Source: Brenneria rubrifaciens (GTDB taxonomy: Bacteria > Pseudomonadota > Gammaproteobacteria > Enterobacterales > Enterobacteriaceae). Taken from it: 64,000 nucleotides of DNA. The position numbers and the translations under genes were made by a program. Positions 5,141 through 19,274 of this stretch are shown here, piece after piece. Each line of letters starts with the position of its first letter. Position 1 is the first letter of the stretch. The notes under the pieces were generated by a model, which made no database searches, was not told the origin of the DNA, and was given only the letters and a program-made list of their open reading frames with translations. Location of the stretch: contig NZ_CP034035.1 in assembly GCF_005484945.1 (NCBI RefSeq), positions 620,001 to 684,000 on the forward strand. The letters are read 5' to 3'.

Positions 5141-6486
5141 TAAGGCGCACCGCACCATCGTAGAGCATGCATCGGCAGGCGTGAGCCACTACGGGATTAC
5201 TTAGCGTCAGAACAGCAATGGAGCCGCCCAATACGGCGGTCGTGGCGCGATAATGCCTGTAACACAAACCGTGGTGGCTTTAAGGCCGGGCTGCGGTAGG
5301 AGGGCACACATTACCGGGGAGCATCGTAAGATATCAACCAAACCAGAGGGCAATGATCTGGGTGAGCGCCTGTCCCAGTATTCTGCACCACACTACCGTA
5401 CATCGTCGAACTGTTTGAATATCGCGCGATTGGCCTTTCATTTACTCCCCCTTGCCCCTTCTTTCTCGATTTTTTGATTATATTTTTTATAATTATTATT
5501 TTTTTAATCATATTGTCATAAAACCCTTTTATTAGTTTATGATTCTTGACTTCACTTTAATGTGATTCATTATCGTTTTTAACCGGACTGCAAAGAAAAA
5601 TATGAAATGTGGTTTTGTTGTTTTTGAGGTTTAAATCCAGATCTGTTTGATCTGGCTAATTCCGCTTAGAGAAGTCATTGAACCAGATTTCAGGAAAATG
5701 GGATCATATAAAAAGGACATTTTTGTGCAGAAAATAATAACCGTTGTAAAAGATCTTTATATATGTCTTGATACGCTCAGGCTATCAAAAACGATTAAAT
5801 CTATCGGTATAAATGATTTGTAATGAATTTTTTTTTGTTTAGAGTGAGTTCGAGATACGGCATCACTCTAAATTGAATTTAGATGGATATCTTTATATCT
5901 TCAAGAAAAGAGGGTCTGAAAATGGACGTTTTGGATAGCACTCTGTAATTCATATTCACGAAATCATCAATGATAATAGTATAGCGCACAGGTGTTGGGA
6001 TCGCCTGGCGTTTGCTTTCTCTCATCAAAACTATTTTATATCTTCAGAAAATTAATAAGATCCTTGCGGAAAGTGGTCTGGAAGCTGATAGGTTATAACT
6101 ATTTTATTAATTTAAAATTATTTTATTCAAGCAAGCTATAGTTAGATTCATTTAAAGTAGGTTGAAATGTTGGTTGTTGTTTTAACGGTTCTTTTTACTG
6201 GCTGAGTCTGTTTAAGAAATCAATTGATATAAATTTTCTTTGCTAATTGAACCAGTAAAAGCATAGAGTAAACAGTAATTTTAAAAGTTAGCGTTATCAA
6301 ATGCCAAGTTAATGATGCTATTGTGAAATATTTAATTTGGTTATATTTGTAGAGAAAGAATTTCTAAGTCACTTAGAAATGTCGCCATTGCATGTGCATT
6401 TTAGTTGCAATACTTAGCACGCTATTTATTTGGCGATGGAATCATATCGTTCATTTATTCAGTTAAATTATTCTCAAGGAGAAACA
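5141..6486. other. 1.35-kb AT-rich region without a credible gene, upstream of the tad operon
   Basis: The first about 300 bp keep chromosome-like composition; from about 5470 the base composition turns strongly AT-rich and stays so up to the flp ribosome site. Only short frames without a ribosome site or codon bias occur. It probably contains the tad promoter and a long leader, but I could not pin down a convincing -35/-10 pair, a c-di-GMP riboswitch core or a sigma-54 site. Confidence 0.5.
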
Positions 6487-6705
6487 ATGATGCGTAAATT
6501 ATTTAAAGCATTACAGAAAGATGAGCGTGGTGTATCTGCCCTGGAATATGCCATTCTGGCCGGGGTTATTGTGGTGGTGGTTGCTGCCGGAGTGGGAGGA
6601 TTCAAAGGCAATATTGAAACACTATTTAAGAGTGCGGATTCTGCTATTAAAGAGGCGGCAACCAAAAGTGAATCTACCACTGCTGGCAAAGGTACCGGCG
6701 GCTAA
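6487..6705 (+). CDS. flp: Flp/Fap pilin (major type IVc pilin)
   Basis: Small prepilin of about 72 residues. A short basic leader ends at Gly (DERG), followed by VSALEYAILAGVIVVVVAAG, which carries the Flp signature Glu5-Tyr6 and the hydrophobic polymerisation helix. The prepilin peptidase is expected to cut after that Gly; the mature pilin is then only about 55 residues and ends in a Ser/Thr/Gly-rich tail. Two ATG codons (6487 and 6490) follow AAGGAG at 6476-6481; either could serve, and 6490 has the more usual spacing. Its stop overlaps the tadV start (TAATG), so it leads the tad operon. Flp pilins build the bundled adhesive pili used for surface attachment and biofilm. Confidence 0.95.
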   Translation: MMRKLFKALQKDERGVSALEYAILAGVIVVVVAAGVGGFKGNIETLFKSADSAIKEAATKSESTTAGKGTGG

Positions 6706-7196
6706 TGATTTTTGCGCCGCTGCTGGTGTTATTTGGGCTGTTAATACATGCCGATTTAACCCGTCGCTGCCTGCCTAATCGCTGGATATTGTTTTACGCC
6801 CTATTATTTCCCTTTTATTTTTTTTATCAGGGAACTAATTGGGTGCTATTCGCCACGCATTGTTTAATAGGCTTAATTACTTTTGCGCTGCTGCTGCTGT
6901 TATTTATTCGCGGCGGCGTCGGCGGGGGTGATGTCAAATTAGGCGCAGTGGTGATGCTCTGGGCTGGGCCGCTTTACGCGGCGCCAGCTCTGGTCGTCAT
7001 TAGTGTGGTTGGTGCACTGTTGGGTATCGCGGGCTGGCTGGCGGACAGAATAATAAAACCGCCGGAAGCGGCTGTCAGCGGAATGGCCTCTACGTTGGGT
7101 TATGCGATTTCGGCCCGGCGCGGCGTACCCTACGGTGTGGCATTGGTCGCAGGAGGGATGACCGTGCTGATTATTAGTCAGGGTTTACACGTGTGA
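6705..7196 (+). CDS. tadV: TadV/CpaA A24-family prepilin peptidase
   Basis: Inner-membrane aspartic prepilin peptidase of 163 residues, the short form lacking the methyltransferase domain, as usual for TadV. Catalytic aspartates are visible: one in HADLTRR near residue 17 and the second in the GxGD-type motif GGGDVKLG near residue 75. About five hydrophobic helices. It processes Flp and the TadE/TadF pseudopilins. It starts within the flp stop codon, so translation is coupled. Confidence 0.93.
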   Translation: MIFAPLLVLFGLLIHADLTRRCLPNRWILFYALLFPFYFFYQGTNWVLFATHCLIGLITFALLLLLFIRGGVGGGDVKLGAVVMLWAGPLYAAPALVVISVVGALLGIAGWLADRIIKPPEAAVSGMASTLGYAISARRGVPYGVALVAGGMTVLIISQGLHV

Positions 7197-7267: not shown

Positions 7268-8207
7268 ATGTCTTCGGTATTGAAATTGGCTTTGATTCTG
7301 CTGGCGGCTGCATTGCTGGCCGGGATCGCCCGCATCATGTTTGTCAGCAGTCAGCAGTCAGCAGTCAGCAGTCAGCCCCCCGCCGGAACAGACGGTGCAG
7401 GTGCGGATCGCCGCTGCGGTATTGCCGGAAGGATTGCTGCTGCGCGAGGGTGATCTGGGCTGGAAAGCCTACGCGGAAAACGACGTCCCGAAAGGGGCGC
7501 TGATTGAAGGTAGCGCCGAAGCCAACCTTAACGGTGCGCTGGTACGCAAACAGATGAATAAAGGGGCGCTAATTCTGGCGAGTGATGTGATCCGCCCGGA
7601 TGCGCCTGGTTTTCTTGCTGCGGCGCTAAAGCCGGGGATGCGTGCGGTTTCCGTGCCGGTGGATGACGTTTCTGGTAATGCGGGGCTGATTCAGCCGGGT
7701 GATTTTGTCGATATCATCCTTACTCAGCGGATGCGGCAGGCGGAGAACAATCATAACGGTAACGCACCGTTGGTAGTGAGTGAAACGGTTGTCGAACGAG
7801 TACGCATTATTGCCGTGGGTTCCAGTATACAGCGTCAAACGGAGGAGAATGGCACAGCTATTCGCGCCAATACGGTCACCATTGAGGTGGCGCCCCGTGC
7901 GGCGGAAGCGGTGACCGTGGCGGCGCAACTGGGCAGCTTATCAATGGCGTTGCGCAGTTTTGCGGTGGACGATCGGGATGCGCTCAATCGTGATAATCCG
8001 CAATATGCAACGGCATCGGTTGTGGCGTGGGACAACACAGTCGGGAAAGAAAACCGGCCTATATGGGGCGGCGATGTCTCCCGTGCATTGGGGAATACCG
8101 TCTCGAAGCCATTAGAAGAGAAGGCGACCCCGCTTAAGCCACGCCAGGTGATCATTATGCGGGGCAGTCAACGTCAGGAACAGGAGTTTGGCACCTATGC
8201 TCGCTAG
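7268..8207 (+). CDS. rcpC: RcpC/CpaB pilus assembly protein, out of frame at a heptamer repeat
   Basis: Periplasmic, membrane-anchored Tad protein of the CpaB/RcpC family thought to stabilise the secretin or gate the pilus. The gene is split between two frames. Frame 1 (from ATG 7268) encodes the anchor helix SSVLKLALILLAAALLAGI and runs out at 7453. The rest, including the SAF-type segment AAAVLPEGLLLREGDLGW and the RcpC domain (GMRAVSVPVDDVSGNAGLIQ), is open in another frame from about 7341 to 8207. The break falls in a (GTCAGCA)4 tract at 7343-7370. Removing one 7-bp unit joins the frames exactly (FVSSQQSAVSPPPEQTVQV) to give a 310-residue protein of normal family length. Possible meanings are a phase-variable OFF state, +1 slippage on the following C6 run, or a sequencing error; a decayed gene is less likely because both halves are intact. 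The 3' end overlaps rcpA by 11 bp. Confidence 0.85.
7343..7376 (+). repeat. Heptanucleotide tandem repeat (GTCAGCA)4 plus partial fifth copy in rcpC
   Basis: Four perfect GTCAGCA units at 7343-7370, then GTCAGC, then a run of six C (7376-7381). The unit length is not a multiple of three, so each gain or loss shifts the frame. Three or six units would keep rcpC in frame; the four present here do not. Confidence 0.95.
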
Positions 8208-10455
8208 TATTTCATTGCGCACTTTGATATTTACGCTGGCGTTGTCCGCTTTATCGCTGACCATGGCGGCCAGGGCGCAGACACCGCTGGCGGAGACACC
8301 GCAGGAGGAAACGCCGCTGGCGCAAACCCAGCGTGAAGAGACGCCTCCGGCGCAGACTTCTCAGGAGGAAACGCCGCTGGCGCAGACCCAGCGTGAAGAG
8401 ACGCCGCTAGCGCAGACGTCGCAGGAGGAAACGCCGCTGGCGCAAACCCAGCGTCAAGAGACGCCTCCGGCGCAGACGTCGCAGGAGGAAACGCCGCTGG
8501 CGCAGATCCAGCGTGAAGAGACGCCTCCGGCGCAGACGTCGCAGGAGGAAACGCCGCTGGCGCAGATCCAGCGTGAAGAGACGCCGCAGACGCAGACGTC
8601 GCAGGAGGAAACGCCGCTGGCGCAGATCCAGCGTGAAGAGACGCCGCAGACGCAGACGTCGCAGGAGGAAACGCCGCTGGCGCAAATCCAGCGTGAAGAG
8701 ACGCCGCAGACGCAGACGTCGCAGGAGGAAACGCCGCTGGCGCAGACCCAGCGTGAAGAGACGCCGCAGACGCAGACGTCGCAGGAGGAAACGCCGCTGG
8801 CGCAGACCCAGCGTGAAGAGACGCCGCAGGCGCAGACGTCGCAGGAGGAAACGCCGCTGGCGCAGATCCAGCGTGAAGAGACATCGCAGGCGCAGACGTC
8901 GCAGGAGGAAACGCCGCTGGCGCAGACCCAGCGTGAAGAGACGTCGCAGGAGGAAACGCCGCTGGCGCAGATCCAGCGTGAAGAAACACCGCTTATGCAG
9001 ACACTGTTGGCGAAAACACCGCTGGTGCAGACGCCGCTGGCGAAGGCACCGTTGGTGCAGACGCCGATGGCGAGGGCACCGCTGGTGCAGACGCCGATGG
9101 CGAGGGCACCGCTGGTGCAGACGCCGCTGGCGAGGGCACCGCTGGTGCAGACGCCGCTGGCGAGGGCACCGCTGGTGCAGAGACCGCTGGCGCTGTCTGT
9201 CGGCGCTGGGAAGTTAATCAATGTCGCCGCTGAGATGACGACGGTATTTGTTGCGGACCCGGAGATAGCCGATGTGCAGTCGCCGGCTGAGGGGGCGGTG
9301 CTGGTGTTGGGGAAACGGGTAGGCACTACATCGCTGTACGTGCTGGATGCAGCGGGCAAACCGCTGCTACAGCGCACGGTGGTGGTTCGCCATAATCTGG
9401 GTGAGGTGCAAAGCTCATTACGCCAGCGTTTTCCGAAACTGCGTCTGGGGCTGACGTCGGCGCCTGGCTCGATTATGGTGGCGGGTCAGGTTCCCAACGC
9501 CGAAACCGCCGAAGCGATTGTCCAGACGATTAGTCCTTATCTGACGGAAAAGGAGCAATTACTCAACCAGTTGACGATCGCCAGCCCGGTGCAGGTGCAT
9601 CTGCGGGTGCGGGTGACGGAAGTTTCGCGCTCGGTCATACAGCAACTGGGGGTGAACTGGGAAGTTATGTCCAGTCCGGGAAACTTTATGCTTGGGTTGG
9701 GCGGCATACGTGATTTTACATCCGGCTCGGGCACGGGGACCACTTATACCAGGGCGCCCGGCGCGTATGGCATCGTAGGTGGGTTCAAGACGGGCAACAC
9801 GTCGATTGAAACCATGATTGACGCGCTGGATCAAGAAGGACTGGTCAGTATTCTGGCTGAACCCAATTTGACCGCGGTGTCCGGTCAGACCGCCAGCTTT
9901 CTGGCGGGCGGGGAGTTTCCGGTGCCAATCAAACAGGAATCGGATTCGATGAGCGTCGAGTTCAAACCATTCGGCGTTGCGCTTGATTTTACCCCCACGG
10001 TGCTGGGCGACGACCGCATCAGCCTCAAAGTCCGGCCTGAGATCAGCGAGATCGACCCTAATAACAGCATCGTGATGGACGGGCTGACGATCCCCGGTGT
10101 TTCTGTGCGGCGCGTCGAAACCACCGTCGAGCTTGCGAGCGGCCAGAGCTTCGCTATCGGCGGGTTGTTACAGAACAACGTCAGCGACATGCTCTCAAAA
10201 GTCCCCGGGCTGGGCTCGGTGCCTGTGTTGGGAAAACTGTTTTCTTCTTCAAATTTTCAAAACAATAAAAGCGAACTGGTGGTGATTGTCACGCCGTATC
10301 TGGTGCGGCCCGCCGCTGCCAGTCAACTGGCTACCCCGCTGGACAGCATGCGGGCCAATACCGATATCGAGTTTATTGTGAATAAAAAGCTCGGTTATGA
10401 CCCGTTGCTAAATGAAGTGCCCCGGCTGACCGGGTCGGCAGGTTTTGTTTATTAG
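8197..10455 (+). CDS. rcpA: RcpA/CpaC outer-membrane secretin with a giant N-terminal repeat domain
   Basis: Secretin forming the outer-membrane pore of the Tad pilus. Layout of the 752 residues: signal peptide (about 1-28, LIFTLALSALSLTMAARA), then about 300 residues of decapeptide repeats, then an N0-like domain starting near LALSVGAGKLINVAAEMT, an N1/BON-like segment, and the C-terminal secretin domain (VHLRVRVTEVSRSVIQQLGV, the conserved SILAEPNLTAVSGQTASFLAGGEFPVP split by this quote into two parts: SILAEPNLTAVSG and ASFLAGGEFPVP; later VPGLGSVPVLGKLF). CpaC/RcpA proteins are usually about 450-500 residues, so the repeats account for the excess. ATG 8197 is preferred over TTG 8188 because of its spacing from AGGAG at about 8182. 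It overlaps the end of rcpC. Confidence 0.93.
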   Translation: MLASISLRTLIFTLALSALSLTMAARAQTPLAETPQEETPLAQTQREETPPAQTSQEETPLAQTQREETPLAQTSQEETPLAQTQRQETPPAQTSQEETPLAQIQREETPPAQTSQEETPLAQIQREETPQTQTSQEETPLAQIQREETPQTQTSQEETPLAQIQREETPQTQTSQEETPLAQTQREETPQTQTSQEETPLAQTQREETPQAQTSQEETPLAQIQREETSQAQTSQEETPLAQTQREETSQEETPLAQIQREETPLMQTLLAKTPLVQTPLAKAPLVQTPMARAPLVQTPMARAPLVQTPLARAPLVQTPLARAPLVQRPLALSVGAGKLINVAAEMTTVFVADPEIADVQSPAEGAVLVLGKRVGTTSLYVLDAAGKPLLQRTVVVRHNLGEVQSSLRQRFPKLRLGLTSAPGSIMVAGQVPNAETAEAIVQTISPYLTEKEQLLNQLTIASPVQVHLRVRVTEVSRSVIQQLGVNWEVMSSPGNFMLGLGGIRDFTSGSGTGTTYTRAPGAYGIVGGFKTGNTSIETMIDALDQEGLVSILAEPNLTAVSGQTASFLAGGEFPVPIKQESDSMSVEFKPFGVALDFTPTVLGDDRISLKVRPEISEIDPNNSIVMDGLTIPGVSVRRVETTVELASGQSFAIGGLLQNNVSDMLSKVPGLGSVPVLGKLFSSSNFQNNKSELVVIVTPYLVRPAAASQLATPLDSMRANTDIEFIVNKKLGYDPLLNEVPRLTGSAGFVY
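8281..9190 (+). repeat. VNTR in rcpA: 60-bp (2 x 30) repeats followed by 30-bp repeats
   Basis: From 8281 to about 9000 a 60-bp unit recurs about 12 times with few differences, coding alternating decapeptides EETPLAQTQR and EETPxAQTSQ; one copy near 8941 is shortened. From about 9000 to 9190 a related 30-bp unit recurs about six times, coding APLVQTPLAR or APLVQTPMAR. All units are multiples of three, so copy-number change alters protein length without breaking the frame. The high identity between copies points to recent expansion or homogenisation. Confidence 0.97.
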
Positions 10456-10482
10456 TGATTTGTGCGCAAAAGGAGTGTGAGG

Positions 10483-10893
10483 ATGACTATTTCCACCGAG
10501 CCGCGCCGCAGTCTCGCTTTACTGGTCATCATTGGCGCGGCCATGCTGTTGGCGGGCTGTGCTTCATGGCAACGGGATGACGATGGTATGCCGGATGTTT
10601 CATCAATAACGTTGCATCAGCGCGGCGGACGCTGGGTTGCGGTTCCGCCAGACTGCTACAAATTACTGCAACCTGGCTACCACTGGAGCCTTGAAGGACG
10701 CAAGCAGGTAGCGTTTGGCTGCGCTACCTATACCAATCTGGCGATCAGTCTGGCGCGGCCACAGGATTTATCCCGACCGCGTGTTTATAGCGGTATGCAA
10801 GCGGACGCGGCGGCTTTGGCGATAACGCGCTATCGGCAGAATAAGGTCGAGCCGCTACGACAGACCGAGTCGACTTCGAAAACAGGTGAATAA
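10483..10893 (+). CDS. rcpB: RcpB/CpaD-type pilus lipoprotein
   Basis: Outer-membrane lipoprotein of about 136 residues. The signal peptide ends in the lipobox LLAGC near residue 27. The segment FGCATYTNLAISLARPQDL carries the CpaD-type motif (GCA...NLA...P.DL..PR). RcpB/CpaD proteins help the secretin assemble or gate. ATG 10483 is chosen because AAGGAG lies 7 nt before it. It stands between rcpA and tadZ, the usual place. Confidence 0.85.
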   Translation: MTISTEPRRSLALLVIIGAAMLLAGCASWQRDDDGMPDVSSITLHQRGGRWVAVPPDCYKLLQPGYHWSLEGRKQVAFGCATYTNLAISLARPQDLSRPRVYSGMQADAAALAITRYRQNKVEPLRQTESTSKTGE

Positions 10894-10907
10894 GCGGATA
10901 GGGACAT

Positions 10908-12116
10908 ATGAGCGTACTGGGTGAGAAAGATCGTAGCGAACAGCGTACGGTAAACTTCGCTGCATTTGTTCAAGATGCGAGCAGTAAAGAGGAAATAACA
11001 CGTTTCCTGAAGGCGAGCACCCTAACTGATAGCCGGGTCGAGCGCGGTAATATCGATGATGTGATCGCCTGGCTGAAAAAAACAGGCCGTTCACCACAGC
11101 GATTGCTGGTGGATATCTCGGGCTCCAGCGGACCGCTGGATGAGCTGGATCGGCTCGCCAATGCCTGTGAACCATCGGTACAGGTCTATGTGGTGGGGGA
11201 TCGCAACGATGTCGGGCTGTATCGCAATTTGCTGCAACGCGGAGTGCAAGACTATCTGGTGAAGCCGCTGGGCGCCGAATTACTGCGCCGTACGCTGGAA
11301 TCGGATGGCACTAATAGCGTGCGCCAGCGGCGTCTTGGCAAAGTTATCACGGTGGTTGGCACGCGTGGTGGGGTCGGCACCACCAGCGTGGCGACGCATC
11401 TGGCCAGAGAGCTTGCTGTTGGCGGTGCGCATCGACGCGTTGTGTATATCGATCTCGATTTTTATGGCGGCAGCGGCACCAGTATGCTGGGGCTGGCGGG
11501 CGGGAGCGCCCTGCTTGAAATTCTGGGGAATGTAAACCGTCTGGACCCGCAGTATCTGGAGCGTACGCTGTCTACGGTGGACAACAGGCTGTATGCCCTG
11601 GGTGCTGAACTGGATTATATGGACGACTATAAGCAGGCGGAAGGCGCGCTGGAGGCGCTACTGGCGACGCTCAGTCAGCATTTCCACTATGTGGTGTTGG
11701 ATATTCCCCTGCGTGGCGGCGAGCTGGCTTCCGAAGCATTTTCTCATGCCAGCCTCGCCTGCGTGGTGACGGATCGGTCGGTTTATTCGGCCAGATCGCT
11801 GGTCAGGCTGGTGCGTCATATCGAGGCGCACCCCAATCCGGCGACGGTGTATAACATCGTCAATCAACCACAGCCATTGAACCGTAATAAAGCCAATATA
11901 GATGATTTCGTCAAAGCGGTAGATCTGCCTGTTGCGGTGGAAATCGGCTATGACGCCCAATCGTTGTCGCTGGCGGAAAATTTGGCAGAGGCGCTGCCGG
12001 AGCGAAGTGAGTTTGCGCAGGGCATAAAACAGCTTGCCAATATCCTGACGGGTGAAGTTCAGAGCGGGCAGCAGGCCTCGTGGTTGCAGAAGTTGTTAAT
12101 GAAGGGGTCAGCATGA
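10908..12116 (+). CDS. tadZ: TadZ/CpaE pilus-localising ATPase
   Basis: MinD/ParA-like cytoplasmic protein of 402 residues. The first about 140 residues resemble an atypical receiver domain (VYVVGDRNDVGLYRNLLQRGVQDYLVKPL). A deviant Walker A follows near residue 148 (GTRGGVGTTSVA), in which the usual lysine is missing, a common feature of TadZ/CpaE. Next is the MinD-like core with DLDFYGGSG. The family places the pilus machine in the cell. Its stop overlaps the tadA start (ATGA). Confidence 0.93.
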   Translation: MSVLGEKDRSEQRTVNFAAFVQDASSKEEITRFLKASTLTDSRVERGNIDDVIAWLKKTGRSPQRLLVDISGSSGPLDELDRLANACEPSVQVYVVGDRNDVGLYRNLLQRGVQDYLVKPLGAELLRRTLESDGTNSVRQRRLGKVITVVGTRGGVGTTSVATHLARELAVGGAHRRVVYIDLDFYGGSGTSMLGLAGGSALLEILGNVNRLDPQYLERTLSTVDNRLYALGAELDYMDDYKQAEGALEALLATLSQHFHYVVLDIPLRGGELASEAFSHASLACVVTDRSVYSARSLVRLVRHIEAHPNPATVYNIVNQPQPLNRNKANIDDFVKAVDLPVAVEIGYDAQSLSLAENLAEALPERSEFAQGIKQLANILTGEVQSGQQASWLQKLLMKGSA

Positions 12117-13552
12117 TTTTCGGACGCAAATTGACAGTGGCGCCCGAATCGGTGACGCCGCCGCAGGAAACTTCGCCGCCAGAAAGTGATAGCGCTCAAG
12201 AGAAAAAATCGATCGCCGCGTCCGTAGTGAAAACCGCGTCCCCCGATGCGGGATCTCCGGTGGCTTACCGCCTGCCGGAAGGCGAGGATACGGTGGTGCG
12301 CTCCGAAAACTACCTCCGCATCCGCCAGACGGTATTTTCCACCATTGATGTCTCCAGCGCGCTCAATCGCAGCCGTGAAGAGGTCAGGCATGATGTCGAA
12401 ACCATTATCGCCGAAACGGTGGTGATGGAAGGTATGCCGGTGACGCAGACCGAACAGCGGCTGATGGGGCAGGAGATTCTTAACGATATGTTTGGTGTAG
12501 GGCCGATTGAACCATTGTTACAGGATGAAACGGTGTCCGACATTATGGTTAATGGTCCGGATCAGATTTATGTGGAACGTTTCGGCAAGCTGGAATTAAC
12601 GCCGCTTAAATTTCGCGATAACGCTCATGTTATCAGCGTCGCCCAGCGTATCGCCTCGTCAGTGGGGCGGCGGGTGGATGAGAGTAGCCCCATGGTGGAT
12701 GCTCGGCTGTCCGACGGTAGCCGGGTTAACGTGATTTTACCGCCGCTGGCGATTGATGGCGCGTCGATCTCAATCCGTAAGTTCTCCCGCCGGGATCTGA
12801 CGCTACAGCGGCTGATAGCAAGAAACTGCCTTTCGCCGGCCATGGCCAGGGTGTTGGAGATCGCGGCCGCCAGCCGGCTCAATATCATTATTTCCGGCGG
12901 CACGGGGTCGGGGAAGACCACGCTGCTTAATGCGTTGTCGCGGTTTATCTCTGTGAATGAACGTATTATCACCGTTGAAGACGCGGCCGAATTGCAGCTA
13001 CAGCAGCCTCATGTATTGAGACTTGAGACGCGGCCGGCGAATATGGAAGGGAGCGGTAAAGTGGCTCAGGGGGATTTGGTGCGCAACGCGCTGCGTATGC
13101 GGCCTGACCGGATCATCCTGGGTGAGACGCGAGGCGTGGAGGCGCTGGATGTGTTGCAGGCGATGAATACCGGCCATGACGGTTCGATGACAACCCTGCA
13201 TGCCAACAACCCGCGTGATGCGCTGATCCGTTTGGAAAGCATGGTGTTGATGGCGAACGGAAACCTGCCGCTGTATTCCATTCGTCGCCAGATTTCCAGT
13301 GCGGTACACATGATTGTACAGGTTGAGCGGATGCGCGACGGTACCCGGCGCGTCACCAGTATTACCGAATTGGCGGGGATGGAAGGTGAAGTGATTGTCA
13401 CCCAGGAGCTGTTCCGCTTCAGTTACGATGCCAGCGCTTTTGATGATGAGGTGAAGGGAACCTTTGACAGTAGCGGCATGCGACCTATTTTCGCCGAGCG
13501 CGCGCGTTATTACGGTATGGAAATTGCACTGTTGGAGGCAATGCGCCCATGA
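12113..13552 (+). CDS. tadA: TadA/CpaF pilus assembly and retraction ATPase
   Basis: Cytoplasmic secretion ATPase of the GspE/VirB11 superfamily, 479 residues. Walker A GGTGSGKTTLLNAL near residue 261, Asp box region VEDAAELQL, Walker B RPDRIILGETRG near 329, and the His box HDGSMTTLHANNP. It powers Flp polymerisation. The ATG at 12113 overlaps the tadZ stop and follows GAAGGGG; a longer frame upstream to 12080 lies inside tadZ and is not used. Confidence 0.96.
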   Translation: MIFGRKLTVAPESVTPPQETSPPESDSAQEKKSIAASVVKTASPDAGSPVAYRLPEGEDTVVRSENYLRIRQTVFSTIDVSSALNRSREEVRHDVETIIAETVVMEGMPVTQTEQRLMGQEILNDMFGVGPIEPLLQDETVSDIMVNGPDQIYVERFGKLELTPLKFRDNAHVISVAQRIASSVGRRVDESSPMVDARLSDGSRVNVILPPLAIDGASISIRKFSRRDLTLQRLIARNCLSPAMARVLEIAAASRLNIIISGGTGSGKTTLLNALSRFISVNERIITVEDAAELQLQQPHVLRLETRPANMEGSGKVAQGDLVRNALRMRPDRIILGETRGVEALDVLQAMNTGHDGSMTTLHANNPRDALIRLESMVLMANGNLPLYSIRRQISSAVHMIVQVERMRDGTRRVTSITELAGMEGEVIVTQELFRFSYDASAFDDEVKGTFDSSGMRPIFAERARYYGMEIALLEAMRP

Positions 13553-14532
13553 GCCAGGCTGATGTGGTGATGCTGCTGGCCTTTGCCGCCAGCGTGTTGG
13601 CCGGGCTCGCCATCATCGTATTGAGCAATGCGTTGAGTCAGCGGGCCGTCGTGCGTATTCGGCAACGTTTGAAAGCGATTACCGGCTTTTCGGGCAATGC
13701 GTCACGGCAGAAAATTCTGCTGGAACTGGAGCGCGCTCAGTCGGAAGCGCGTCGTCGTCGTCGGCGTCAGGCGATGGGAACGCTGGGGTACTACCTTAAC
13801 CGGTTGGATACCGTGGGCGGGAAACAAGGAAAGCGGATGCTGTTCGTATGCACGGCGGCGACACTTCTGTTTGGCATCGCTCTGCTAGCGCTTGGTCTGA
13901 TACCGGCTACCTGGTGGAGTATCCCGCTGGCGCTGCTGGCCGCTCCGCTGGCCGTCACCATCTTTGTCTACCAAAAACAGGTTGAGCGGTTCCAGATTCA
14001 GTTTCTTAATCAGTTGCCGGAGGCGATGGATCTGATTACCCGCGCTAGTCAGGCCGGGATACCGATTACACAGTCCATTCGTAATGTCGGCAACCATGTC
14101 ACGGCGCCACTCGGGCCGGAATTCCTCAAGATGGGCGACGGGCTGTTATTAGGTAATGAAATTCAGGAGGTGGTGGACGAAGCGGTATTGCGTGTCAAAT
14201 TACCTGACTTTGCCTTTTTTGCCGTCTGCCTTGCTTTACAACGTGATACCGGCGGATCGCTGGTGGAAGCGCTGGATAATCTTTCCACCATAATCCGCTC
14301 ACGGCGCGATTTACGGCTGAAGACCAAAGCGATGACGGCCGAAGGGCGCCTGTCCGGTTTGATCCTCGCAGTGTTGCCGTTTTGCATCACGGGCGCGCTG
14401 TTCGTGCTTAATCCGACGTACATCGGCATCATGTTCGATACCCCTAACGGACAAAAGCTGCTTTGGGTCGCGGGTATTATGCTGGCGCTGGGCGTGATGT
14501 CGATTCGCAAGATCGCCAAAATGGAGGTTTGA
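13549..14532 (+). CDS. tadB: TadB inner-membrane platform protein
   Basis: GspF-type membrane protein, 327 residues. One N-terminal helix (MLLAFAASVLAGLAIIVL), a basic cytoplasmic stretch, two more helices, the T2SSF cytoplasmic domain (QFLNQLPEAMDLITRASQAG, ...LQRDTGGSLVEALDNL) and a C-terminal membrane pair. It forms the inner-membrane platform with TadC on which TadA works. It overlaps tadA by 4 bp (ATGA). Confidence 0.95.
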   Translation: MSQADVVMLLAFAASVLAGLAIIVLSNALSQRAVVRIRQRLKAITGFSGNASRQKILLELERAQSEARRRRRRQAMGTLGYYLNRLDTVGGKQGKRMLFVCTAATLLFGIALLALGLIPATWWSIPLALLAAPLAVTIFVYQKQVERFQIQFLNQLPEAMDLITRASQAGIPITQSIRNVGNHVTAPLGPEFLKMGDGLLLGNEIQEVVDEAVLRVKLPDFAFFAVCLALQRDTGGSLVEALDNLSTIIRSRRDLRLKTKAMTAEGRLSGLILAVLPFCITGALFVLNPTYIGIMFDTPNGQKLLWVAGIMLALGVMSIRKIAKMEV

Positions 14533-15474
14533 GTGGATTTACTTTATGTCACATGCCTGTTGTGCGCGGTAACCGGCGTGGCGTTATATCTGTATGCCCG
14601 CGTCGGACGCCGCGCCAGGCTGGCTGAACGGTTGCAAGCCGAGGTATTACGTAAGCGTAGCCAACTTCAGGAGCAGGTTGATTCGTGGCGGCACCACGCT
14701 TTACCTCAGCGGGTGCTGCGGATATTACAGCGTATTGGTCACTTTGCGCCGCTGTTCAGCGCGGCCCAGCGCACAGAAATTGCGGGAAAACTGGTGTCGG
14801 CCGGGTTCCGCAGTCCTCAAGCGCTGATTATTGTCGCCGCTTTGTCACTGTTGTCGATGGTTTCTCTGGGGTTGCTGGTGGCGTTTTTCGCCTGGCCATA
14901 TCTGGAAGGCAACTGGATATATGCGCTGGCGCTGATACTACTGGCAATCTACCTGGGTACGTTATTCCCGCGTCTGCTGCTTGACCGAATGGTGCTGCGG
15001 CGTCAGCGGCTAATCCAGCAAAGCCTGCCGGACGCACTTGATCTGCTGGTGATCTGCACCAATGCCGGGCTGGGTTTAAACAGCGCCCTTCAGCGGGTGG
15101 CCGAAGAAATGGAAATGGTCTGCCCGGCGCTGGGGGATGAACTGCGTTTAACCTCTGGCGAATTGCAAATCAGTAGCGATACCGAAACGGTACTCAACCG
15201 ACTGGTTGAACGCACCAGGCTGGATTCCATCCGTACGCTGGTGAACACGCTGCTGCAATCACGTCAGTATGGCACGGCGATTACTCAGGCATTGCGTGTT
15301 CTGGCTCGCTCCGAACGTACCGCCCGCATGATGCGGCTGGAAGAAGCGGCCGCCAAGCTTGCGGTGAAAATCACCCTGCCCATGATGTTGTTTATTATGC
15401 CGACGGTGTTAATTGTGGCGGCGGGGCCGGCAGTACTAGGATTGATGGCTTTTTTTGCGACACAGCAACAATAA
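14533..15474 (+). CDS. tadC: TadC inner-membrane platform protein
   Basis: Second GspF-type protein, 313 residues, partner of TadB. The T2SSF domain shows QSLPDALDLLVICTNAGLGL and later RQYGTAITQALRVLARSERT, with flanking membrane helices. It begins with GTG at 14533, directly after the tadB stop codon, so expression is likely coupled. Confidence 0.94.
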   Translation: MDLLYVTCLLCAVTGVALYLYARVGRRARLAERLQAEVLRKRSQLQEQVDSWRHHALPQRVLRILQRIGHFAPLFSAAQRTEIAGKLVSAGFRSPQALIIVAALSLLSMVSLGLLVAFFAWPYLEGNWIYALALILLAIYLGTLFPRLLLDRMVLRRQRLIQQSLPDALDLLVICTNAGLGLNSALQRVAEEMEMVCPALGDELRLTSGELQISSDTETVLNRLVERTRLDSIRTLVNTLLQSRQYGTAITQALRVLARSERTARMMRLEEAAAKLAVKITLPMMLFIMPTVLIVAAGPAVLGLMAFFATQQQ

Positions 15475-15499
15475 AAATATCACATGAAGGATGGTGGTG

Positions 15500-16267
15500 A
15501 TGGAACATAAATATCGATTAGTTCTGATGCTTTGTATAGCGGTTTTATTGGCGGGCTGTGGTTCAGCGCCAGCGCATAAGGAAAAAGAGGTACAGGGAAA
15601 ATCTCTTGTTGGGGAAAGCGATCTGCGCATTGCCGCCAGTGCGTTACAGAGTGGAGATTTCAATGTCGCCCAGTCAATCTATGGCCGTTTGGTTAAACAA
15701 CAGCCCGATAACGTCAACGCCTGGCTAGGACTGGCGGATACCCATTTCATGATGGGCGAGTTGGACGCCGCCAATAAAGCGTACGCTACCATGCAGCAGC
15801 TTGACCCGAAAAATATTGACGCCCAACTGGGACAGGCCCGGATTTTGGTGCGGAATCGCAATCTGACGGAGGCCATCGCCCGCTTTAAGTCTATTCTCAC
15901 TCGTTTTCCCAATCATCCGCTGGCGCTGTCCGGGCTAGGGGTCAGCTACGATCTGTCTGGCGATCCTGACCAGGCGCAGAGCACTTATCGCCGCGGGTTA
16001 CAGTTACACCCTGATGACGCGGCACTGCGTACCAATTTCGGGCTATCGCTGGCGTTGAGCGGGAAACCCCGCGAAGCAGTTAATGTTCTGCTGGGAAACT
16101 CCGGCGTATCCGGCAAACTGCCGCAGGCGCGGGATAACCTGGCATTGGCATATGGCATGTTGGGGCGGGACGATGCTGCCGAAGAAATTCTGATGAGCAG
16201 CCAGTCGCGGAGCGCGGTAGAGGATAATTTGGAGTTCTATCACTACCTGCGCAACAACATGAGGTGA
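15500..16267 (+). CDS. tadD: TadD TPR lipoprotein
   Basis: Lipoprotein of about 255 residues with signal peptide and lipobox LLAGC, then several tetratricopeptide repeats (for example NAWLGLADTHFMMGELDAANKAY, shown here as NAWLGLADTHF and GELDAANKAY; ALSGLGVSYDLSGDPDQAQ). TadD acts as a pilotin-like or scaffold protein of the Tad machine. Two ATG codons exist (15491 and 15500). The AAGG at 15487-15490 touches the first, so the second, MEHKYRLVLML, has the better spacing. Confidence 0.9.
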   Translation: MEHKYRLVLMLCIAVLLAGCGSAPAHKEKEVQGKSLVGESDLRIAASALQSGDFNVAQSIYGRLVKQQPDNVNAWLGLADTHFMMGELDAANKAYATMQQLDPKNIDAQLGQARILVRNRNLTEAIARFKSILTRFPNHPLALSGLGVSYDLSGDPDQAQSTYRRGLQLHPDDAALRTNFGLSLALSGKPREAVNVLLGNSGVSGKLPQARDNLALAYGMLGRDDAAEEILMSSQSRSAVEDNLEFYHYLRNNMR

Positions 16268-16271
16268 CCGT

Positions 16272-16754
16272 GTGAAAGTTAACGTTGCAACGTCTCTGCG
16301 CCGCAATCAGCGCGGTGTCACCGCGCTGGGATATGCGCTGGTCGCGCCATTACTGTTTGCTGTGGTGTTTGTTGCCTTGGAAGTGGCTTTCATCATGCTG
16401 GCCGACGCGCATCTGGATATTGCGGCCAACCGGGTGGCGCGTATGGGGCGTATCGGCATTCAAGGGAATTGTCAACAGGCTGTGCGGGGCGTCATGAACA
16501 ACACATTGTCCGCCTGGGTTCGCAACGAGAATGAAATGTATGCGGACGCCAAAATTTACACGCCGGGCGGGGATAATGATTTCAACGATCCGGGTGATAA
16601 AAATTATGAGCCGGTTTGTAACGCTGGCGGGCGGGGCGATATGGTGATCTATCGGCTGGCTTTTGACCGTCCCGGTCTGACAGGGTTTATCGCCTGGCTG
16701 GGATACACCAAAATGCGTTTTGAACGCGTGATCCTGATCCAGAACGAACCGTGA
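16272..16754 (+). CDS. tadE: TadE-like pseudopilin
   Basis: 160 residues. Basic leader, then RGVTALGYALVAPLLFAVVF as the prepilin-type segment, then an extracytoplasmic domain with paired cysteines (GNCQQA; PVCNAGG). TadE and TadF are minor pseudopilins processed by TadV. Position +5 after the cleavage Gly is Gly here rather than the usual Glu (GVTALG-Y instead of GVxxxE), which is odd for a processed pseudopilin. Starts with GTG at 16272 and overlaps the next gene by 4 bp. Confidence 0.85.
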   Translation: MKVNVATSLRRNQRGVTALGYALVAPLLFAVVFVALEVAFIMLADAHLDIAANRVARMGRIGIQGNCQQAVRGVMNNTLSAWVRNENEMYADAKIYTPGGDNDFNDPGDKNYEPVCNAGGRGDMVIYRLAFDRPGLTGFIAWLGYTKMRFERVILIQNEP

Positions 16755-17410
16755 GACAGCGTATGATGAAGATCGGGTATTCTCTGCGGCGGCGTTTGGC
16801 ACAGACCGCATTGTGGCGTGTCGGGCGCGACAGCAACGGCGTGGCGGCGGTCGAAGCGGCGCTGATTATTCCAGTGGCGGTCTTTCTTATCTTTGGCGCC
16901 TGGGAACTCTATAGCTATTACAGAGCTGCGGCGGTAGTGGAACGCACGGCGTTTCTGGTGGCAAACAGCCTGTCTATGCAGCGTGAATTGAAAGACGGTA
17001 ATCAATGCTCTCTGGCCGATGATGTCTGCACTTATAACGCCATTGCCCAAGATCTGATGACCCCGCTCGATTATAAAAATAACGGCGGCCTCATCATTAG
17101 TCTTTATACCGCGAAACCGGATAAAAGAGGTGCCCTGGTCTGGACGTCCAAAGAGGCAGATAAGGAGGGGTGGCGGAGAATTTATCGAGGCAGCGGCAAT
17201 AAACGTGCTCTGGTTTCCCTGTTGGCGCCGCCTGCCGGCTTCCCGCAGGCGACGATTGACGACACCACGATCGTGGTGGAAGCGTTCTATCACTACACCC
17301 CGTTTACCATCGCTTCAACATTCTGGCCGAAACTGGGCGGCGAGCGGCAAATTGTCAGCCGGGTATTCTATCGCCCACGTTTTGGCGCCTTAAAGGTGTT
17401 GGGGAGATAA
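16751..17410 (+). CDS. tadF: TadF-like pseudopilin
   Basis: 219 residues. The N-terminus is basic, then NGVAAVEAALIIPVAVFLIFG forms the prepilin segment with Glu at +5, and the rest is an extracytoplasmic domain with one Cys pair (NQCSLADDVC). It starts at GTG 16751 inside the tadE stop region; an internal ATG at 16763 is an alternative start. Placement before tadG supports the TadF assignment. Confidence 0.83.
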   Translation: MRQRMMKIGYSLRRRLAQTALWRVGRDSNGVAAVEAALIIPVAVFLIFGAWELYSYYRAAAVVERTAFLVANSLSMQRELKDGNQCSLADDVCTYNAIAQDLMTPLDYKNNGGLIISLYTAKPDKRGALVWTSKEADKEGWRRIYRGSGNKRALVSLLAPPAGFPQATIDDTTIVVEAFYHYTPFTIASTFWPKLGGERQIVSRVFYRPRFGALKVLGR

Positions 17411-17414
17411 CACG

Positions 17415-19274
17415 ATGGAGAAAAGAATGATGAGTACGCACTGGCTGTTCCTTATCACACTGCTGCGGGAACAGCGCGGCGCGGTAACAATGACCTATCT
17501 GCTCTGTTTTCCTGTGATATTGCTGGCGCTGCTGGGGTCGATTGATTTTATCCGTTACAGCATGGCGCAGGACAAGTTGCAGAACTCGCTGGATGCGGCG
17601 GTGATTTCCGCCGGGCGTAATCTGGACAAATTCACACCAGATAAAGGTTCTGACGATGAAACCAAGTGGCGCACCGACGCCAGCCGCTATTTTCGCAGCA
17701 ATATGCCGGAGAATTTTCTCGGCAGCCACATCCCGCTGGAAAATTTAAAGATAACTTACGGCACTGAAAACAATGAACAGGGCGCTATCTCCGGGCAACT
17801 GGTGCGAATGTCCGTAAGTGGCACCTTGCCATTATTGTCAACCGGCATGATGGAAAGAACCGCTTTTACACTGATGGCGACAAACGAAGCGGTACGCCGT
17901 ACCCGCAGCGATGTGGAAATGGTGCTGGCGCTGGATAATACCGGTTCTATGGGGCATGAAGACCGGATTGGCAAGCTGAAAATCGCTGCTACGAAACTGG
18001 TGGATACATTGCTGAGCGCGGCGCAGGCCGGCAAGGTCGCCAGCCAATCATTCATCGGTGTCGTGCCTTTTGCCGATACGGTGTATGTTGGCCAAGAGAA
18101 AGTACATTGGCTGTCACCAAGGGCGCAGCAGATGCGCTACATCGAAGCAGGCAAGCATTGGGGCGGTTGTTTGGTAGAACCTTACGTCAATAACACCTTC
18201 GAGGCCAAACCGGGGTTACCAGGCAATTTTGAGCCGCTGATGACGGTTGGGACAAAAGAAATCGACATGAAAAAAGTTGAAAACGTCCCTTATTATGAAA
18301 TTGATGGCAATTCTTTAGAAATTAGCGGCCAGGACATTGATAAGCGAATAAACGATCCTGATTTGAAAAATAATCATACAATCCGAGTCAGCTTCGCTTT
18401 TAATTCTTATCATCGCCAATGGCAATATGGTGATACAGGCTGGTTGAATAATTGTCTGTCAGACCGAAAAATGATTTTTCTCAGCAATAATGCACCCGAT
18501 CTAAAGCGTAAGATTAATGCAATGGAGATAGGTGGTCGTACTATTATTCCATTAGGTTTATTATGGTCATGGCGTATGCTTGACGCAGACTGGCGTGGCG
18601 CTGACGGTTGGGGGGATAGTAATAAACCCCGCGATCCCGCGATCGGCTTGAAGAAAGTTATTGTTCTGCTGACCGATGGCAATAATGGCCTCGATCCTGT
18701 CGTAGGCACTACCGTCCCCTTTAAATTGAAAGATGTAGGCGTTATTATCGATGGCGAGAATGATGGTGAAAAGAGTGTTAATTTAAGTTTTAAATATCGG
18801 TTAAATAAAGGTGATGCCTGGTCGAAACGGTATTTACCGCTGAAAATATCTGATGATAGTAACTTTTTAAATAGATTCTATGCTAATAGCTCTGATTTTA
18901 ATTCGTTACGAATAGGCTCTCCTGATGAATTAAAGGCAGGGGGGACTGAAAATGGTACAAAAATAAATCCTTTTGGTCTGTTATTTCAGAAGCCGAGTGG
19001 TAACGACTCTGATTGGCTGGTCGGTAATAATACGCTTAATACGCTGACCACCAAGCTGTGTGAAAACATTAAAAACGAATACCAGGAAAAAAATAAAAAT
19101 ATCGAAATCTACACAGTGGTGCTGGGCAGCGGCACCAATGACAGAACCAAATCTATGATGCAAAACTGTTCTAGCGGCACGGGCAACTATTTTGATGCCA
19201 GCAACGTGGACCATCTATCCTCTGCGTTTCAGAGCATTGCCAGTTCGCTCACCGAACTGCGGTTAAATAAATAG
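17415..19274 (+). CDS. tadG: TadG pilus protein with von Willebrand A domain
   Basis: 619 residues. A TadE-like N-terminal anchor (RGAVTMTYLLCFPVILLALL) followed by a large vWA domain. The MIDAS motif DNTGSMG lies near residue 173 and a second motif, LLTDGNNG, near 418. TadG is thought to anchor the pilus or sense surface contact. The middle of the gene (about 18.2-19.1 kb) is clearly more AT-rich than the rest of the operon and holds a long insertion between the two vWA halves, typical of fast-evolving surface-exposed parts. Last gene of the tad operon. Confidence 0.92.
   Translation: MEKRMMSTHWLFLITLLREQRGAVTMTYLLCFPVILLALLGSIDFIRYSMAQDKLQNSLDAAVISAGRNLDKFTPDKGSDDETKWRTDASRYFRSNMPENFLGSHIPLENLKITYGTENNEQGAISGQLVRMSVSGTLPLLSTGMMERTAFTLMATNEAVRRTRSDVEMVLALDNTGSMGHEDRIGKLKIAATKLVDTLLSAAQAGKVASQSFIGVVPFADTVYVGQEKVHWLSPRAQQMRYIEAGKHWGGCLVEPYVNNTFEAKPGLPGNFEPLMTVGTKEIDMKKVENVPYYEIDGNSLEISGQDIDKRINDPDLKNNHTIRVSFAFNSYHRQWQYGDTGWLNNCLSDRKMIFLSNNAPDLKRKINAMEIGGRTIIPLGLLWSWRMLDADWRGADGWGDSNKPRDPAIGLKKVIVLLTDGNNGLDPVVGTTVPFKLKDVGVIIDGENDGEKSVNLSFKYRLNKGDAWSKRYLPLKISDDSNFLNRFYANSSDFNSLRIGSPDELKAGGTENGTKINPFGLLFQKPSGNDSDWLVGNNTLNTLTTKLCENIKNEYQEKNKNIEIYTVVLGSGTNDRTKSMMQNCSSGTGNYFDASNVDHLSSAFQSIASSLTELRLNK

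Follow-up and report, generated by a model that had tools for sequence, protein, structure and literature searches.

A heptanucleotide repeat at the frame conflict in rcpC

The tad operon in a 64,000-nucleotide stretch of the Brenneria rubrifaciens genome (hereafter "the window", positions 620001-684000 of a 4,028,093-bp single-contig genome) contains an rcpC gene whose membrane anchor and periplasmic body are encoded in different reading frames, with a perfect heptanucleotide repeat at the junction. We propose that this heptamer is a translational slipped-strand phase-variation locus, a reading to which we assign a probability of about 0.5. The tract, the frame conflict and its position, the intact rcpC body and the in-frame orthologues are directly seen in the sequences that we compared. 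The rcpC tract is probably a slippage-prone locus, and the mechanism would be of a kind that is already known.

The repeat occupies 34 bp of the forward strand (7343-7376) and consists of 4.9 copies of GTCAGCA with a 100% match. Its last base is the first C of a C6 run (7376-7381, forward strand), which forms a second indel-prone site at the edge of the tract. Both elements lie in the linker between the RcpC membrane anchor and the periplasmic body; an initial annotation of this DNA had placed them just after the anchor. The anchor frame (7268-7453, forward strand) opens at ATG 7268 with GGGAG upstream, encodes the membrane helix within a product of 61 residues and ends at TGA 7451-7453. The periplasmic part of CpaB/RcpC is encoded in the frame of TTG 7341, which stays open for 288 codons (7341-8207, forward strand) and overlaps the start of rcpA. 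This body open reading frame (ORF) clears the curated cut-offs of both TIGR03177 CpaB (177.7 bits; cut-off 71) and PF16976 RcpC (108.9 bits; cut-off 28.8), but the N-terminal helix that marks a CpaB/RcpC protein when it is in frame with the body is out of frame in the window allele. The initial annotation was thus right that anchor and body are in different frames, and its arithmetic, in which dropping one unit joins them, is consistent with a unit of seven, which is not a multiple of three. None of the three frames has a stop within the tract itself, which places termination in the wrong frame downstream of it. TTG 7341 had also been taken for the sole start available to the body; this needs correction, because GTG 7395, GTG 7401, TTG 7422, TTG 7434, ATG 7554 and others follow in the same frame, all of them downstream of the membrane helix.

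Viewed as a simple sequence repeat, the locus is a perfect short tandem repeat within the 5' coding region, with a unit that would change the frame. The sequences on its two sides are out of frame in one allele and in frame in the orthologues, which are without the tract. Its 4.9 units exceed the three from which PhasomeIt calls repeats of 6-9 nucleotides (PMC5953494).

The heptamer repeat is real and exceptional, and lies far beyond chance. In six order-3 Markov simulations of 344 kb, the longest period-7 runs were 16-17 bp. The genome itself, sampled as 55 stretches with 1,143,901 bases (28% of the genome), contains 75 period-7 runs of at least 14 bp, and 73 of these are 14-17 bp long; the exceptions are the 34-bp rcpC tract and an unrelated tract of 58 bp. 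A chance repeat was rejected on the basis of these simulations and this genomic background. The 21-bp core, comprising three GTCAGCA units, had no second occurrence in nine genomes of the genus, its own included.

Orthologous genes are in one frame and lack the repeat

Orthologous rcpC genes were present in six of the eight other genus genomes (G001-G004, G007 and G008); G005 carries the second cpaB type only, and G006 gave no match. Adding the gene of Brenneria sp. 4F2 gave seven orthologues for comparison at the DNA level. Such a comparison within the genus had been proposed in the initial annotation. Anchor and body are in a single frame in all seven orthologues, and the heptamer tract is absent from every one of them. 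Anchor and body are also joined in one protein in 13 of 13 homologues from a protein search (P0004-P0016), several of which are the same genes. In the orthologues, a single frame contains both the conserved anchor motif and the conserved beginning of the body, so the conflict is confined to the tract and the C6 run. The 61-residue out-of-frame peptide, used as a query for other alleles in a protein search, matched itself alone; the protein cluster of P0003 comprises three members.

At the position of the tract, two relatives carry GTCAGTAGTCAG (L005) and GTCAACAGTCAGCAG (L002). Motifs of the GTCAGTAGTCAG/GTCAACAGTCAGCAG type, found in some relatives, may represent a natural unexpanded seed for repeat expansion. 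Measured from the FV codons to the VQVR-type codons, the linker spans 36 nt in six of seven relatives and 27 nt in the remaining one, against 49 nt in the window. Since the linker varies among the relatives in both sequence and length, extra residues should be tolerated at this site.

We also scanned 54 rcpC/cpaB 5' regions collected through genus, family and class searches, a set in which the window gene appears twice and one region (L060) is cut by a contig end. The class search covered 369 genomes and found 61 matches in 54 of them; the best 30 of the 61 were scanned. Outside the window gene, no repeat was longer than 16 bp: a CTG run of this length lies far upstream in Brenneria sp. 4F2, several others reach 15 bp, and a CG run measures 14 bp. 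One class-level locus with a short frame (L072) was considered as a case of a tetramer repeat and dismissed, because the frame is open across the repeat.

Comparison with known phase-variable genes

The unit length, the 5' coding position and an apparently length-tolerant linker fit translational phase variation like that of neuO, the O-acetyltransferase gene of the Escherichia coli K1 capsule. The initial annotation had stated that repeats of this type drive slipped-strand phase variation, for which the neuO heptamer is a precedent (PMC13001214). Like the rcpC tract, it is a 5' coding heptamer, with a unit that is not a multiple of three, in a gene of the Enterobacterales with a surface-related product. 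The neuO repeat ranges from 3 to 53 units, with 20 the commonest number, and is OFF in 42 of 64 complete genomes (PMC13001214); finding a sequenced isolate in the OFF state is therefore nothing unusual for loci of this kind. However, switching and unit-number variation have been measured for neuO, whereas rcpC is known from one allele of 4.9 units and belongs to another gene class.

The (GACGA)4 repeat of Haemophilus influenzae hsdM resembles the rcpC tract as a frame-breaking coding repeat of few units (PMC2651432). This 4-unit pentamer switches at rates like those of far longer tetramer tracts (PMC2651432), and a review assigns hsdM-type pentamers of at least three units to the hypermutable class (PMC4235727). 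It differs from the rcpC repeat in unit length, in belonging to a restriction-modification gene and in having a measured rate. The H. influenzae surface adhesin genes hmw1A and hmw2A share the heptamer unit, but their repeats lie mostly upstream of the gene in 13 to 38 copies, with one coding tract of 14 (PMC2651432).

The Flp/Tad pilus of Pectobacterium and RcpC of Pseudomonas aeruginosa are comparable in operon type and protein family (PMC3767616, PMC12307814), and window RcpC matches the P. aeruginosa RcpC structure chain 9gzr_A with an E-value of 2.2e-10. These systems differ in that the regulation described for them acts on the transcript, through a two-component system, and the accessible parts of the two papers do not describe a repeat switch. 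A search of the open-access literature, outside which most subscription papers lie, found no repeat-switched Tad pilus or rcpC/cpaB, in agreement with the initial annotation, which knew of no such report.

A proposed slippage switch

In the mechanism that we propose, a VSSQ-type linker motif, whose codons are part-heptamer in some relatives, would have expanded in this lineage to 4.9 units. Polymerase slippage, whose rate, reversibility and effect on the pilus we infer, would then gain or lose whole heptamer units, and each slippage step would rotate the frame downstream. Translation of the sequenced allele from ATG 7268 would produce the membrane helix, leave the RcpC frame and stop after 61 codons, yielding no anchored RcpC. 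In P. aeruginosa, the N-terminal helix anchors RcpC in the inner membrane, the protein forms a periplasmic conduit with the RcpA secretin, and Tad-dependent aggregation is lost upon deletion of rcpC (PMC12307814). The allele as read should therefore yield no working conduit from the window operon. RcpA may drop as well. The start of rcpA (ATG 8197) and the end of rcpC share 11 nt, and an AGGAG lies within rcpC, so an early stop ~740 nt upstream may lower RcpA through loss of the overlap coupling at 8197-8207. Cells with this allele would be Tad-pilus-negative with respect to the window operon and could return to the pilus-positive state via further slippage.

Alternative explanations for the frame conflict

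The rcpC body contains no stop over 276 codons. With G002 as the outgroup, its branch was 0.084 compared to 0.145 in G001, and 0.092 compared to 0.141 in G008. Ratios for other tad genes went in both directions, with values of 0.200 versus 0.079 for tadV (G008), 0.134 versus 0.079 for tadC (G001) and 0.052 versus 0.068 for tadA (G001). An old pseudogene was ruled out by the lack of stops and by a shorter body branch than that of either sister used for comparison. A body that is both open and unrelaxed indicates that the frame break is recent or reversible.

As a control for gene disruption, 143 ORFs of G001 and G008 stretches were compared with our sample of the B. rubrifaciens genome, and 83 of them had a match of at least 55% identity. 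Among these 83 comparisons, 73 were in a single frame over at least 80% of the length, 4 look disrupted and 6 were partial, some of the latter lying at the ends of stretches. The control is crude, in that the same gene can be counted through both relatives and some disrupted matches may be spurious ORFs. It did not flag rcpC itself, where the break is too close to the start of the gene. Separately, a region at L044:16037-17329 is 93% identical to a 445-aa ORF of G008 and has an internal stop in the B. rubrifaciens genome.

Several points weigh against a phase-variation switch in rcpC. The evidence base is one allele of one strain, and 4.9 units is short for a heptamer switch. The tract is absent in relatives and so is not a conserved contingency locus, and no comparable tract was found among the other rcpC/cpaB 5' regions of the 54 scanned. 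The window linker is 13 nt longer than that of six of the seven relatives, which does not correspond to whole heptamer units; something beyond whole-unit slippage must therefore have occurred since the split, or the ancestor was different. Whole-unit slippage from a 36-nt ancestor would, by itself, fail to explain the present linker length. The switch suggested in the initial annotation accordingly fits the location of the conflict in the tract and C6 run, the unit length, the 5' position and the variable linker, but not this 13-nt excess. In addition, the C6 run could account for the frame conflict, and a second tad locus, whose cpaB has an open frame (G000:C1:570812-571555, L011) and is 33-37% identical to window RcpC, may keep a Tad pilus going regardless. 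Finally, broken genes seem to occur at a few per cent in this genome, and recent inactivation therefore remains a serious rival.

Such an inactivation would be a one-way event, in which an indel in the repeat or C6 region knocked out rcpC, either by drift or because sticky pili were selected against in the laboratory or the host, and adaptive switching plays no part. We hold this to be a tentative but real possibility. It is favored by the missing tract in relatives, by the net change in linker length and by other apparently broken genes, which include the 4 disrupted matches of the control and partial ORFs around L118:3908-4910 that appear from their motifs to be ABC-transporter-like. Loss of adherence on prolonged culture has been described in Aggregatibacter (PMC9239275). 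However, an inactivating indel does not need a 34-bp perfect repeat, the rcpC tract occupies a site where length changes look tolerated, and the body shows no relaxed constraint. The unrelaxed body would also be compatible with an error of sequencing or assembly, likeliest in the C6 homopolymer, in which case the true gene would be uninterrupted and the repeat would do no more than lengthen the linker. The C6 run adjoins the tract, and the assembly is a single contig for which the read type is unstated. We nevertheless consider such an error unlikely. There are 317 homopolymer runs of exactly six in 344 kb, yet 73 of the 83 compared ORFs are in a single frame, which argues that homopolymer errors are uncommon, and the heptamer repeat itself is no homopolymer. 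Expression of rcpC despite the conflict, either by a ribosome slip at the CCC-CCC codons or from an internal start, appears highly improbable. CCC-C is a +1-slippery motif, and GTG, TTG and ATG codons do occur within the body frame, but the seven relatives are without the C6 run and need no slip. RNA structure was dismissed as a frameshift signal because folding of the region is ordinary (z -1.39). Products of internal starts would lack the membrane helix, and helix-less RcpC is mostly cytoplasmic in E. coli (PMC12307814).

Other repeats in the genome

A second candidate is the octamer GCCATGCG, whose 3.8 copies span the start codon of a hydrolase-like gene (L118:5484-5513, G000:C1:3355484). 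The body of this gene is not in the frame of the ATG closest to the ribosome-binding site, although ATGs within the repeat are also possible starts. Its orthologue in G001 (85% identity) lacks the repeat and occupies one frame. The gene had no Pfam match; it is presumably alpha/beta-hydrolase-like, judging by its motifs, and it is adjoined by the partial ORFs mentioned above. Two repeats that displace a frame within 28% of the genome, both missing in a relative, point either to a small group of switches or to a lineage that is prone to slippage and decaying.

The 58-bp period-7 tract, (ATTAAGA)8.3 at L119:3829-3886 (G000:C1:3453829), lies where a 302-aa ORF with no Pfam match ends, and is flanked by a family 8 glycosyltransferase gene and an FdtA-type (PF05523) gene. 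An outer-membrane efflux protein gene is followed, just past its 3' end, by a C10 run (L091:9376-9385, G000:C1:259376).

The rcpA secretin gene (8197-10455, forward strand), which starts at ATG 8197 and encodes the partner of RcpC, contains repeats of 60 bp and 30 bp that form an in-frame array at 8274-9192. The array specifies ~300 N-terminal residues rich in Pro, Thr, Gln and Glu, sits between the signal peptide and the pilus N-domain, and is absent in six of six relatives compared. It is conceivable, though we consider it doubtful, that the lineage has evolved a small set of repeat switches comprising the rcpC heptamer (acting on the Tad pilus), the octamer (whose own ATGs would shift the start frame of the hydrolase-like gene) and possibly the 58-bp heptamer tract beside surface-sugar genes, while RcpA diversifies by its in-frame array.

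The tad operon and its setting

The window contains a complete tad operon with flp, tadV, rcpC, rcpA, rcpB, tadZ and tadA to tadG, named from Pfam or NCBIfam matches where present and otherwise from position. The flp pilin ORF (6430-6705, forward strand) had no NCBIfam match and is named by its position and its relatives; its core is 56-76% identical to ORFs in the same position in six relatives. It is followed by the prepilin peptidase gene tadV (6705-7196, forward strand; PF01478). Downstream of rcpA, the genes rcpB, tadZ, tadA, tadB, tadC, tadD, tadE, tadF and tadG (10462-19274, forward strand) each form a single open frame in the same order as in relatives. TadE scores just under the Pfam cut-off. 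TadF and TadG had no NCBIfam family match and are named by their position in the operon. All 12 of the other tad genes are single open frames that match relatives, and each of 20 ORFs chosen outside the operon in the window has a Pfam family match. Named relatives of RcpC are from Brenneria (79% identity for B. corticis and B. alni, 72% for Brenneria sp. 4F2), and these homologues back the genus assignment.

Implications

Tad pili are drivers of tight adherence and biofilms, and Brenneria has pathogens of trees and other woody plants among its members. In Pectobacterium, the Flp/Tad genes are required for full virulence (PMC3767616). If rcpC is indeed switched by its heptamer, it would represent the first repeat-switched Tad pilus as far as our open-access literature search reaches. 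The pilus of a species would then be misrepresented by any single sequenced genome, and a clonal population would contain a mixture of cells. The known contingency loci would gain a gene for a pilus conduit, from a genus that includes pathogens of woody plants, and, because some relatives keep the unexpanded seed, rcpC would show a possible origin of such a locus from an ordinary coding motif.
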